The notes under the pieces are model-generated. The model ran no database searches and had not been told where the DNA came from. It saw only the letters and a list, made by a program, of their open reading frames with translations. A stretch of DNA of 64,000 nucleotides, from the NCBI RefSeq assembly GCF_000306785.1, contig NC_017955.1:3162001-3226000 (forward strand). Reading direction: 5' to 3'. Shown here piece by piece: positions 30,141 through 54,387 of the stretch. Position 1 is the stretch's first letter, and the number at the start of each line of letters is the position of its first letter. A program made the position numbers and the translations under genes. This DNA comes from Modestobacter italicus. Its GTDB lineage: Bacteria; Actinomycetota; Actinomycetes; Mycobacteriales; Geodermatophilaceae.

Positions 30141-30152
30141 CGTTGAGTTATG

Positions 30153-30269
30153 TCCGGCGGCGTCCTACTCTCCCACCCGGTCCCCCGAGCAGTACCATCG
30201 GCGCTGAAAGGCTTAGCTTCCGGGTTCGGAATGAGACCGGGCGTTTCCCTTTCGCCATGACCGCCGTAA
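30153..30269 (-). rRNA. rrf: 5S ribosomal RNA
   Basis: About 117 nt. Reading the minus strand, it begins near a TTACGGCGGTCATGGCG sequence, contains the conserved CCGAACCCGGAAGCTAAG, and ends with GGGAGAGTAGGACGCCGCC. Ends are placed by similarity to other actinobacterial 5S genes and may be off by a few bases. It is the last gene of the rrn operon. Confidence 0.95.
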
Positions 30270-30384
30270 CACTGTGAAGATGTACCCACCCACCACCACC
30301 CCGATCCCGTGAGGGATGGTGTGGCGGCTGGAGGTGGGGGAACCGCGCCCGGTCGAATGATCGGGGGTTCCGTACCTTCAGAGC

Positions 30385-30401
30385 TGCACAGTGGACGCGA
30401 G
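30385..30401 (-). other. 3' arm of the 23S processing stem
   Basis: This 17-base sequence is an exact reverse complement of 33682-33698 on the other side of the 23S gene. The transcript can form a long helix that brings the two 23S ends together for RNase III-type processing. One further base pair extends it. Confidence 0.82.
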
Positions 30402-30437
30402 ACGATCAAGCACGTTGGAGCAATGTTGCTGGATGTA

Positions 30438-35571
<5,134 letters not shown>

Positions 35572-35705
35572 GATGATTTGATCGCAGCTGAGACCGAGAG
35601 TTGGCACTCTCGTTCAATCAACCAAAGGAACCCAAGACCATGACCACCCATAAAGGCAGTCAGGCCAGGGGGTATTGATACTTGGCACTGACTTTCGGCA
35701 CGCTG

Positions 35706-49987: not shown

Positions 49988-49988
<1 letters not shown>
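47526..49988 (-). CDS. pheT: Phenylalanyl-tRNA synthetase beta subunit
   Basis: 820 residues. Domains in order: N-terminal EMAP-type tRNA-binding (about 40-155), B3/B4 editing domain, B5 domain, a class-II-like core, and a C-terminal ferredoxin-fold anticodon-binding domain (about 730-820, VSTFPPVLVDLALVV). It pairs with PheS in an alpha2-beta2 enzyme. GTG 49988 overlaps the pheS stop by one base (TAGTG), so synthesis is coupled. Confidence 0.97.
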
Positions 49989-51115
<1,127 letters not shown>

Positions 51116-51183: not shown

Positions 51184-53436
51184 GTGACCACGACTGAGGC
51201 ACCGGCCTCGACCATCGACCAGGTGCTCCGCACCGGCGGCGTGCACAGCGTCTACCAGCCCATCGTGGAGCTGGACTCCGGCCGTGTCGTCGCCTACGAG
51301 GCGCTCGCCCGCGGGCCGCAGGGACCCCTGCACACCCCCGACGCGCTCTTCAGCGCCGCCCGGTCCGCCGGACGCCTCGGCGAGCTGGACGCGCTCTGCC
51401 GCGCGGCCGCACTCCGCGGAGCGGTGGCCGCGGAGCTCGGCCCGCCGCTGACCGTGTTCGTCAACGTCGAGCCCGAGGTGCTGGAGTCCGCCCCGCTGGA
51501 GGAGCTGCTCGCGATCGCGACCACGGCCCCGGCCGGTCTGCGGGTCGTCGTGGAGATCACCGAGCGGGCGCTGGCCACCCGGCCGGCCGACCTGCTGCGC
51601 GCCGTCGAGCGGGTCCGCGAGGTCGGCTGGGGCATCGCCCTGGACGACGTCGGCGCCGACTCGATGTCGCTGGCCTTCATGCCGCTGCTCCGCCCGGACG
51701 TCATCAAGCTCGACCTCCGCCTGGTCCAGGAGCGGCCCGGCCCGGCCGTCGCCGAGATCATGAACGCGGTCAACGGCTACGCCGAGCGCACCGGTGCGGT
51801 CATCCTCGCCGAGGGGATCGAGGACGAGGCCCACCTGGCCATGGCCTCCGCGCTGGGCGCCAGCCTCGGCCAGGGCTGGCACTTCGGCCGGCCGGCCGCC
51901 ACCGTGGACCACGGGCGCCCGGTCGGCCGGCTGGTGCTGCCGTCGACCGGCGTCCCCGCCGTCGACCCGGACGAGTCGCCGTTCCGCTGCCTGCCCGCGG
52001 GCACCCAGCTGCGGACCGCCCCCAAGGCGCTGCTCATCGAGCTCAGCAAGCACCTGGAGCGCCAGGCGATGCGGCTCGGCGAGACCTGCGTCGTCGCCGC
52101 GACCTTCCAGGAGGCCCGGCACTTCACCCCGGCGACCGCGCTGCGCTACCGCGACCTGGTGGCGCGCACCGGCTTCGTCTGCGCCCTCGGCGAGGACCTG
52201 CCGGTCGAGCCGCTGCCCGGCGTCCGCGGCGCCGCCCTGGCCCCGGACGACCCGGTCCGCGGTGAGTGGGACGTCGTCGTGCTCAGCCCGCACTTCAGCG
52301 CCGCGCTTCTCGCCCGGGACCTCGGCGACGGCGGCCCGGACCTGCAGCGCCGCTACGAGTACGCGCTGACCTACGAGCGGCGCACCGTCGAGCAGGCCGG
52401 CGTCTCGCTGGTCGCCCGGGTGGCCGCGCAGCCCGTCGTCCCCGAGCCGGTCGAGGAGGTCGCCGAGGAGTCTCCGGCGGTCGTCCGCCGCAGCGGGAGC
52501 GCCGACGGCGCGACGCTGCAGGAGATGGTGCTGCAGCGGGCGCTCGCCGCCACGACCAGCGGGGTCGCGATCGCCGACATGACCGCCCCGGACCAGCCGC
52601 TGGTCTACGTCAACGCCGCGTTCGAGCAGCTCGCCGGCCTGCCCGCCGGCCGGGCGCTGGGTCGCAACTGCCGCTTCCTGCAGGGTCCGGACACCGACCC
52701 GGGCGTGGTGGCCCGGATGCGCCAGGCCATCCGGGAGGGCGCGGAGTTCCGCGCGACGCTGCTCAACCACCGCGGCCCCGAGCGGGAGCCGTGGTGGAAC
52801 GAGATCCACCTGGCGCCGGTGCTGGACAGCTCCGGCCAGCTGGTGCAGTACATCGGCGTGCAGACCGACGTGACCGCGCGGGTGACCGCCGAGCGCGAGC
52901 TGCTGCAGGAGCGCGACCGCACCCGCCGGCACCTGGCCCAGATCGAGGAGCTGGCCTACACCGACCCGCTGACCGCGCTGCCCAACCGGCGCCGGTTCGA
53001 GGAGCGGATGGAGTCCGCGCTGTGGCAGGCCCGGCTCGACGGGACCGCCGTCGCCCTGCTGTTCCTCGACCTGGACGGCTTCAAGGCGGTCAACGACGCA
53101 CTCGGCCACGCCGCCGGCGACGAGCTGCTGCAGGTGGTCGCCGACCGGCTCCGCGGCCGGCTGCGCCGCGGTGACCTGCTGGCCCGGCTCGGCGGCGACG
53201 AGTTCCTGGCCGGCCTGGTCGGGCTGGACCCGGCGACCGCCCCCGCGGAGGCCGCCCGGGTCGCCGACCAGCTGCAGGCCGTGCTGACCGAGCCGGTGCT
53301 GCTGGGCACGGAGCGGGTGCGCGTCCGGGCCAGCGTCGGGGTGAGCGTGCACCCCGACGACGGCGCCGAGTTCGGACCGCTGCTGCACCGCGCCGACGCC
53401 CGGATGTACGCCAGCAAGCACCCCGCCGCGGGCTGA
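51184..53436 (+). CDS. Blue-light-sensor-like c-di-GMP protein: EAL-DICT-LOV-GGDEF
   Basis: 750 residues. An EAL phosphodiesterase domain (about 10-250) has YEAL at 38-41, FVNVEPEVLE, EITERAL, ALDDVGADS, KLDLRL and LAEGIEDEAHL, so most catalytic positions are kept. Residues about 265-430 resemble a DICT sensory domain. Residues about 450-565 are a LOV domain with GRNCRFLQG (Cys496) and a closing VQYIGVQTDVT. A GGDEF domain (about 585-750) has GGDEF at 670-674 and an RxxD inhibitory site five residues before it. It should both make and break c-di-GMP under flavin-based blue-light control. GTG 51184 has no Shine-Dalgarno site; the gene is monocistronic with a strong terminator. Confidence 0.92.
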   Translation: MTTTEAPASTIDQVLRTGGVHSVYQPIVELDSGRVVAYEALARGPQGPLHTPDALFSAARSAGRLGELDALCRAAALRGAVAAELGPPLTVFVNVEPEVLESAPLEELLAIATTAPAGLRVVVEITERALATRPADLLRAVERVREVGWGIALDDVGADSMSLAFMPLLRPDVIKLDLRLVQERPGPAVAEIMNAVNGYAERTGAVILAEGIEDEAHLAMASALGASLGQGWHFGRPAATVDHGRPVGRLVLPSTGVPAVDPDESPFRCLPAGTQLRTAPKALLIELSKHLERQAMRLGETCVVAATFQEARHFTPATALRYRDLVARTGFVCALGEDLPVEPLPGVRGAALAPDDPVRGEWDVVVLSPHFSAALLARDLGDGGPDLQRRYEYALTYERRTVEQAGVSLVARVAAQPVVPEPVEEVAEESPAVVRRSGSADGATLQEMVLQRALAATTSGVAIADMTAPDQPLVYVNAAFEQLAGLPAGRALGRNCRFLQGPDTDPGVVARMRQAIREGAEFRATLLNHRGPEREPWWNEIHLAPVLDSSGQLVQYIGVQTDVTARVTAERELLQERDRTRRHLAQIEELAYTDPLTALPNRRRFEERMESALWQARLDGTAVALLFLDLDGFKAVNDALGHAAGDELLQVVADRLRGRLRRGDLLARLGGDEFLAGLVGLDPATAPAEAARVADQLQAVLTEPVLLGTERVRVRASVGVSVHPDDGAEFGPLLHRADARMYASKHPAAG

Positions 53437-53486: not shown

Positions 53487-53544
53487 TGCGCGTGCGGGAC
53501 CATCGGTGCCCGCGCCCGGCGCGGGACGGGTCCGGGGAGGTCGC

Positions 53545-54387
53545 GTGGCGGTCGTGCTGGCGCTGGCGTCAGCCGTGGTCTACGGCGCCTCGGACTTCCT
53601 CGGCGGGCTGTCCAGCCGGCGCGCGTCGGTGTTCGGCGTCGTCGTGCTGTCCCAGGCCGTGGGCCTGCTCGCGCTGCTGGTCCTGCTCCCCTGGCTCGGC
53701 GGGCCCGTGCAGCCGGCCGACCTCGCCTGGGGTGCGGCCGCCGGGCTGGCCGGCGCGGCCGGGCTGGTGGTCTTCTTCCGGGCGCTGGCCTCCGGCGTGA
53801 TGAGCGTCGTCGCGCCGGTCACCGCGGTGACCGCAGCCGCGGTCCCGGTCCTCGTCGGCCTGGCCAGCGGCGACAGCGTCACCGCGTGGGCCGCCGTCGG
53901 CATCGCCCTCGCGCTGGTCGCCGTGGTGCTCGTCTCGGCCGACGGCGGCCTCTCCGCGCTGCGGACGGCCCGGCCGGCCAGCCTGCTCCCCGCGCTCGTC
54001 GCGGGTGCGGCCTTCGGCGTCTTCTTCGTGCTCCTGGACCGCATCTCCGCCGACGCCGGGCTGACCCCGCTGGTGGCGGCGCGGGTGGTGTCGGCGGCCT
54101 TCGTCGCCGGCCTGGCGCTCGTCGGCCGGCAGTCGCTGCGGGTGCCGAGGCCGGCGCTGCCGCTGGTGGCGGCGTCCGGGGTGGGCGACATGTCCGCGAA
54201 CGCGCTGTTCCTGCTCGCCACCCAGCAGGGCGGCGCCCTGGCCATCACCGGTGTGCTGGCCTCGCTCTACCCGGTCAGCACCGTCGTGCTGGCCCAGCTC
54301 GTGCTGCGCGAGCGGCTCGGGGGCGCGCAGGTGGCCGGGCTGGTGACGGCCGTGGCGGCCGTCGTCCTGATCACCCTGCCCGGCTGA
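53545..54387 (+). CDS. DMT/EamA-family transporter
   Basis: 280 residues, ten hydrophobic segments in two homologous halves, the EamA plan of drug/metabolite exporters. The first helix begins VAVVLALASAVVYGASDF and the last half ends with ASLYPVSTVVLAQLVLRERL, the conserved EamA closing motif. The cargo is unknown. GTG 53545 is chosen since GGGGAGG lies 5-10 nt upstream; a longer ATG-like reading has no ribosome site. It converges on the methyltransferase gene with a 6-bp gap. Confidence 0.9.
   Translation: MAVVLALASAVVYGASDFLGGLSSRRASVFGVVVLSQAVGLLALLVLLPWLGGPVQPADLAWGAAAGLAGAAGLVVFFRALASGVMSVVAPVTAVTAAAVPVLVGLASGDSVTAWAAVGIALALVAVVLVSADGGLSALRTARPASLLPALVAGAAFGVFFVLLDRISADAGLTPLVAARVVSAAFVAGLALVGRQSLRVPRPALPLVAASGVGDMSANALFLLATQQGGALAITGVLASLYPVSTVVLAQLVLRERLGGAQVAGLVTAVAAVVLITLPG

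Follow-up and report, generated by a model that had tools for sequence, protein, structure and literature searches.

A cyclase domain and a phosphodiesterase domain for cyclic di-GMP (c-di-GMP) occur together in many bacterial proteins, which raises the question of how one such protein chooses between the two activities. The closest described systems are the LadC enzymes. In the portions of the LadC reports available, the RxxD loop is described as packing on the LOV domain in the dark, with the cyclase off, and light as extending the linker (PMC10396304, PMC12805367); linkers of 35 residues go with a fold change of >10,000 and those of 21 residues with one of ~15 (PMC10396304), and a salt bridge has been proposed for LadC homologues (PMC12805367). 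The LadC authors also suggested that light may aim at the EAL domain in LOV-GGDEF-EAL proteins (PMC10396304, excerpt), and SL2 of Synechococcus elongatus, which has that architecture, appears in the excerpt of a 2022 review as a blue-light phosphodiesterase (PMC8846402). The same excerpt lists DICT among the sensory domains without discernible physiological purpose (PMC8846402). Among open-licence papers, none was found that joins the DICT domain, GGDEF and LOV, none that joins LOV, EAL, GGDEF and Modestobacter, and none on an EAL-first order.

We analysed a stretch of 64,000 nucleotides (the window), in which an open reading frame on the forward strand (51184..53436, +) begins with GTG, stays open for 750 codons and encodes a protein of 750 amino acids. 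A Pfam search of this product, in which all four domain matches exceeded the curated cut-offs, recovered EAL (residues 12-237; 51217..51894, +; E 7.7e-40), DICT (residues 273-418; 52000..52437, +; match to PF10069 at 277-379, E 3.9e-13, 49.9 bits against a gathering score of 23.8), LOV (residues 450-567; 52531..52884, +; PAS_9 at 466-565, E 1.3e-14) and GGDEF (residues 591-746; 52954..53421, +; E 2.1e-40). These are the domains, in the order, that the initial annotation had read from the sequence and had expected such a search to return; PAS_9 is a family that takes in LOV domains, as stated in the excerpt of PMC8846402. The canonical LOV motif GRNCRFLQG lies where it had been placed, with its cysteine at residue 496 (codon at 52669..52671, +). 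The C-terminal GGDEF domain does carry an RxxD inhibitory (I) site (R661-D664; 53164..53175, +), five residues N-terminal to an intact GGDEF active-site motif (residues 670-674; 53191..53205, +).

The source genome is a single contig of 5,575,517 bases whose nearest named relatives are Modestobacter. It holds 32 GGDEF matches, 28 EAL matches (27 above the cut-off) and one DICT match. When domains were paired by position and frame length, 18 ORFs contained both GGDEF and EAL; GGDEF came first in 17 of them and EAL only in the EAL-DICT-LOV-GGDEF protein, in keeping with the earlier remark that GGDEF usually precedes EAL. A query with the LOV domain returned one other match in this genome, and the LOV cysteine motif occurred at only two of the 30 loci examined (from 37 PAS_9 matches), the other belonging to a PAS-GAF-SpoIIE protein (L221:877-3213; C1:5503111).

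A search with residues 240-445 returned 885 homologous proteins (E ≤1e-5); all of the best 120 of these contained DICT, and 113 of the 120 contained EAL, DICT, PAS and GGDEF. Among Geodermatophilaceae genomes, 88 of 112 contained DICT, as did 47 of 394 genomes drawn from the class, the source genome included. A scan of named genomes, which used peptides of close relatives as queries and thus favours the EAL-DICT-LOV-GGDEF architecture, yielded 95 relatives, 80 of which were kept: 69 from Geodermatophilaceae, 7 from Kineosporiaceae, 2 from Cellulomonadaceae, 1 from Streptomycetaceae and 1 with no family assigned. The EAL-DICT-LOV-GGDEF order was found throughout Geodermatophilaceae and again in Kineococcus, Quadrisphaera and Cellulomonas, so the survey across actinobacteria that had been proposed earlier shows a recurrent arrangement. 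With profiles built from the family, 159 loci gave 158 DICT ORFs (six loci gave none), 136 of which were distinct: 89 were EAL-DICT-LOV-GGDEF, 17 EAL-DICT, 16 DICT alone, 6 EAL-DICT-GGDEF, 4 EAL-DICT-LOV, 3 DICT-GGDEF and 1 DICT-LOV-GGDEF. Here "DICT alone" means that the rest of the ORF was unmatched by the four profiles, a class that includes a MerR-DICT protein (L031), and two of the 17 EAL-DICT ORFs (L098 and L139) run into contig ends that truncate them. EAL-DICT proteins lacking LOV-GGDEF also occur in other families of the class.

The divergent neighbour of the enzyme gene (49988..51055, -) is presumably PheS-like, and the names TrmH and RplT for further neighbours are likewise our assumption. 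A PheS match was present in 56 of the 69 named Geodermatophilaceae loci, 54 of which also had a TrmH or RplT match, and in 0/11 named loci outside the family. Downstream, on the same strand as the enzyme gene, lies an EamA-family transporter gene (Pfam; 53506..54387, +); a near full-length EamA match stood 3' of the enzyme gene in only 3 of the 80 named loci. In other named loci the EamA match sits on the opposite side of the enzyme gene, between it and PheS; the EamA gene has therefore changed sides. A promoter scan around the gene found none, and a terminator scan found one terminator-like site, located within the next gene. A complete rRNA operon lies at 30152-35573 (-), 15.6 kb upstream of the enzyme gene. 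In at least 20 entries of the family genome survey the DICT match was 15-19 kb from a contig start, distances that fit a conserved spacing to the rRNA operon where assemblies break.

The C-terminal half of the protein resembles MsLadC, a long-linker LadC, in the features given in the available text of PMC10396304 and PMC12805367: LOV directly before GGDEF, a full LOV motif, RxxD, DxLT and a 35-residue linker. Unlike MsLadC, a LOV-GGDEF protein, it is preceded by EAL-DICT, and some relatives have a decayed cyclase or lack one. The putative signalling helix between LOV and GGDEF, from D562 of DVT to L596 of DPLT (52867..52971, +), is 35 residues long, which falls within the long-linker LadC definition in the excerpt of PMC10396304, and residues 564-592 form one helix in the full-length model. 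The conserved LOV motifs that mark LadC proteins, and the intact GG(D/E)EF of diguanylate cyclases together with an RxxD for product inhibition, are both present in the 750-residue protein. Of the solved structures that cover LOV as well as GGDEF (residues 438-700), the best match is 8c05, a LOV-GGDEF protein, and the alignment with it crosses the linker without a gap; the term 8C05 occurs once in the available text of PMC10396304, whose residue numbering agrees with the 8c05 chain at an offset of 7. When the proposed salt-bridge positions were mapped through this alignment, R566 was R in 84/91 and E540 was E in 90/91 aligned sequences.

Between LOV and GGDEF, the stretch that starts with the D of DVT and ends with the L of DxLT has 35 residues in 88 of 91 aligned sequences and 21 in the other three, a count in which the protein of the window was entered twice, and the linker length is constant in 116/116 spanning homologues among the best 120 of the 885. 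In a quick tree of 115 EAL-DICT sequences (SH-aLRT support only, many long branches), the three 21-residue sequences (L042, L059 and L156) fall outside the main group, on long branches, and a separate fusion origin for them is possible.

Some LOV proteins have been described as redox or flavin sensors, and the LOV domain might serve the cell in that way instead of sensing light. We consider this highly improbable: the LOV cysteine is present in 94/94 distinct LOV-bearing ORFs, the flavin-pocket N and Q positions are nearly invariant among the homologues listed, and a role free of the adduct would not explain a fixed cysteine.

Nine EAL residues that we take to be the catalytic, metal- or substrate-binding set are all present in the protein (E39, N94, E124, D154, D155, K175, E210, E213 and Q230). 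They are complete in 96 of 99 sequences that combine EAL-DICT with LOV and/or GGDEF; the three exceptions are L026 and L095, in which the first position is missing, and L119, which carries just a short piece of EAL. Loop 6 departs from the canonical form, reading DDVGADSMS as against DDFGAGYSS in RocR, and it is mostly DDVGA(D/E)xxSL across the family; judged from sequence, this unusual loop is the main doubt on the phosphodiesterase half. The loop would suit an EAL domain that is not an enzyme and instead acts as a receptor for c-di-GMP or regulates the cyclase, leaving nucleotide turnover to LOV-GGDEF, as would the loss of EAL residues in 5 of the 15 EAL-DICT sequences that are not truncated at contig ends (L056, L145, L148, L154 and L155). 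That reading nevertheless seems to us quite unlikely, given how completely the nine residues are kept in the larger proteins, even after the cyclase motif has decayed.

The DICT domain, in its predicted structure, appears to have a phospholipase D-like fold, with the TrmB sensor as its nearest neighbour. The top Foldseek match had a TM-score of 0.44 by query length, and TrmB/TrmBL2 (2f5t, 5bqt) and phospholipase D proteins matched at 7-9% identity. Unlike these proteins, DICT lacks the HKD motif (HxKx4D in 0/79 DICT sequences) and has no sequence-profile support, a comparison of the DICT profile with 14 phospholipase D domains of the genus having returned nothing (best probability 1.1). Two candidate relatives from a profile search of PDB sequences were not trusted, 7on7 because it rested on six weak repeats and 6j05 because of its E of 0.88. 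No open-licence paper was found that joins TrmB, phospholipase D, sugar binding and fold. Weak Pfam CHASE6_C matches in 25 of 79 DICT sequences (alignment A2; best E 0.0015) hint at kinship between the two sensor domains. We regard the modelled TrmB/phospholipase D-like fold as a lead on DICT, a domain of unknown function.

DICT is also joined to a c-di-GMP phosphodiesterase domain in the DICT-HD-GYP proteins of Microcystis; in the excerpt of that report, the catalytic domain differs from the one found here, and LOV and GGDEF are absent from the Microcystis proteins (PMC7063779). Around 18 loci with short DICT ORFs in genomes of the class (L270-L287), 170 ORFs were predicted and 65 were scanned, giving DICT in 17, MerR in 16, amine oxidase in 4, polyprenyl synthetase in 2 and photolyase in 1. 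Many short DICT proteins thus appear to be MerR-DICT regulators; the fusion was checked in one protein (L031) and is presumed for the others. Single neighbours of short DICT ORFs include a photolyase (L276), amine oxidases (L276, L280 and L281) and a polyprenyl synthetase (L273). A link between DICT and light drawn from the raw counts in these 18 neighbourhoods is suggestive only.

Between DICT and LOV the protein has a tether (residues 417-442; 52432..52509, +) that is predicted to be disordered (pLDDT <50) and varies in length in relatives. Among the relatives aligned with the 750-residue protein, the DICT-LOV span is between 39 and 72 residues long. EAL and DICT are 41-52 residues apart in 113 of 114 sequences and 68 in one, a count that leaves out 15 DICT-alone sequences with stray alignment. 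The full-length monomer model has a pTM of 0.57, at which the placement of the domains is unreliable. A fixed LOV-GGDEF linker beside a variable, predicted disordered DICT-LOV tether indicates that LOV is wired to GGDEF and that DICT is left with EAL. From sequence and model we conclude that LOV is coupled to GGDEF; that DICT is coupled to EAL is the more likely arrangement, given the existing EAL-DICT proteins and the spacing. This suggests a protein of two tethered modules, in which each sensor serves its own enzyme. The initial annotation had proposed that light and a second signal choose between making and degrading c-di-GMP. A light-driven choice stays plausible, whereas a single switch shared by both sensors is not what a fixed linker on one side of LOV and a predicted disordered tether, 39-72 residues long, on the other would suggest. 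The protein shares with SL2 the presence of LOV, GGDEF and EAL in one chain; unlike SL2 as described in the excerpt of PMC8846402, it has EAL at the N terminus, an added DICT domain and a flexible tether from EAL-DICT to LOV.

Most relatives retain the cyclase motif: among the 89 distinct full-architecture sequences, 73, including the protein of the window, have an exact GGDEF and one has GGEEF. Four sequences (L023, L116, L120 and L156) differ from the motif by a single change, and RxxD is absent from L116, which has GGDAF, and from L058, in which GGDEF is intact. The cyclase has been lost in three groups of the tree: 11 Blastococcus sequences with LOV; 6 Blastococcus sequences without LOV, one of them duplicated through labelling (L081); and 3 Modestobacter paralogues that have LOV and a coil but no GGDEF. 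The nine EAL residues are intact in all 20 of these sequences. In the 11 Blastococcus sequences, whose loci all have a PheS match, E673, N637 and D646 are changed in 11/11 and R661 and D664 are kept in 11/11; in the 6 without LOV, R661 and D664 are again kept in 6/6, N637 is changed in all 6 and D646 is kept. RxxD is thus retained in 17/17 sequences of the two decayed-motif groups. In the Modestobacter paralogue (L105, L115, L119 and L126), LOV and the coil are followed by a shared tail, TDSPGARRA, in place of GGDEF; in the fourth of these, L119, EAL is incomplete, a short piece, and it was excluded from the loss-group counts. At five loci (L081, L083, L088, L100 and L130) a second copy without LOV and with a decayed cyclase motif adjoins the full-length gene and retains the EAL residues, DICT and RxxD. 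A test of joint LOV and cyclase loss on the tree (median p 0.0625) was set aside, as L081 was mislabelled (two ORFs at one locus) and contig ends truncate the EAL-DICT sequences L098 and L139.

Median pN/pS among the 11 Blastococcus sequences was 0.18 for EAL, 0.15 for DICT, 0.23 for LOV and 0.57 for GGDEF, and among 40 named sequences with intact motifs it was 0.42, 0.47, 0.56 and 0.71, respectively; these values are uncorrected, the pairs are non-independent and the 40-sequence set is more diverged than the 11-sequence set. The value of 0.23 indicates that LOV is still constrained where there is no cyclase for it to control; in the three sequences without GGDEF, LOV (0.39 against 0.19 for EAL) appears less constrained. 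Because LOV is kept after loss of the cyclase in two groups, it probably acts on EAL as well as on GGDEF, which fits the suggestion of the LadC authors that light may be directed at EAL. As far as sequence goes, the cyclase is dispensable in relatives and the EAL residues are not, which suggests that the degrading half is the one retained every time.

Might the protein then be mainly a light-regulated phosphodiesterase, with LOV controlling EAL and GGDEF chiefly regulatory, sensing c-di-GMP through RxxD? The Blastococcus sequences that keep the LOV cysteine, the EAL residues and RxxD beside a decayed cyclase motif, at loci with PheS and with lower pN/pS in EAL and LOV than in GGDEF, point in that direction, as do the EAL-DICT-LOV-coil paralogues with their shared tail and the blue-light phosphodiesterase activity reported for SL2 (PMC8846402, excerpt). 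We hold it to be unlikely for the protein of the window, since exact motifs predominate among full-architecture relatives, the linker has the length of a light-activated cyclase, and L116 and L058 lack RxxD. Retention of RxxD may moreover be a matter of chance: the two decayed groups still keep 22/45 and 21/45 of the conserved GGDEF positions. We did not accept it as proof of c-di-GMP binding, as the chance of R661 and D664 being kept in both groups is ~0.05 and docking on LOV may be what preserves the loop. Dead GGDEF domains act as GTP sensors in some other proteins; such a role is unsupported in the 11 Blastococcus sequences, in which N637 and D646 are changed throughout.

The reading that we favour, and hold to be slightly better than an even bet, is a bifunctional c-di-GMP enzyme of two tethered sensor-enzyme modules, a light-activated LOV-GGDEF and an EAL set by DICT. 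Its domain order, residues and linker length, like the loss patterns in relatives, are read from sequence, and the tether disorder and likely DICT fold from models; the photochemistry, the direction of the light effect, the caging and the product inhibition we infer from the characterised LadC enzymes. By that analogy, in the dark the RxxD loop would dock on LOV and the 35-residue linker would lie outside the stimulating register, keeping the cyclase off, and the EAL half, as set by DICT, would remove c-di-GMP. Blue light would form the Cys496-flavin adduct, upon which the linker would extend into the stimulating coiled-coil register and the cyclase would become active; c-di-GMP would then climb until it bound at RxxD and inhibited the cyclase. 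That blue light turns the cyclase on is most likely, by the same analogy. Control of EAL by DICT, which would sense a ligand through a domain of TrmB/phospholipase D-like fold, and a probable influence of LOV on EAL are proposals of the present analysis. Controlling the cyclase by light cannot be all that such a protein does, since two groups keep LOV with no working cyclase motif or with no GGDEF. A fuller version is possible and more tentative: a two-input, two-output switch in which DICT, as a TrmB-like metabolite sensor with the phospholipase D fold, would gate EAL and LOV would both gate the cyclase through the long-linker cage and act on EAL, the Blastococcus cyclase having become an RxxD c-di-GMP-binding cap that would turn the protein there into a phosphodiesterase under the control of light and product.

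Most relatives carry both motifs, and close relatives at the same chromosomal place lack the cyclase motif; the family therefore offers natural variants for studying each half of the protein. The fold lead gives DICT a testable hypothesis, and the predicted effect of light is specific and may be simply checked.
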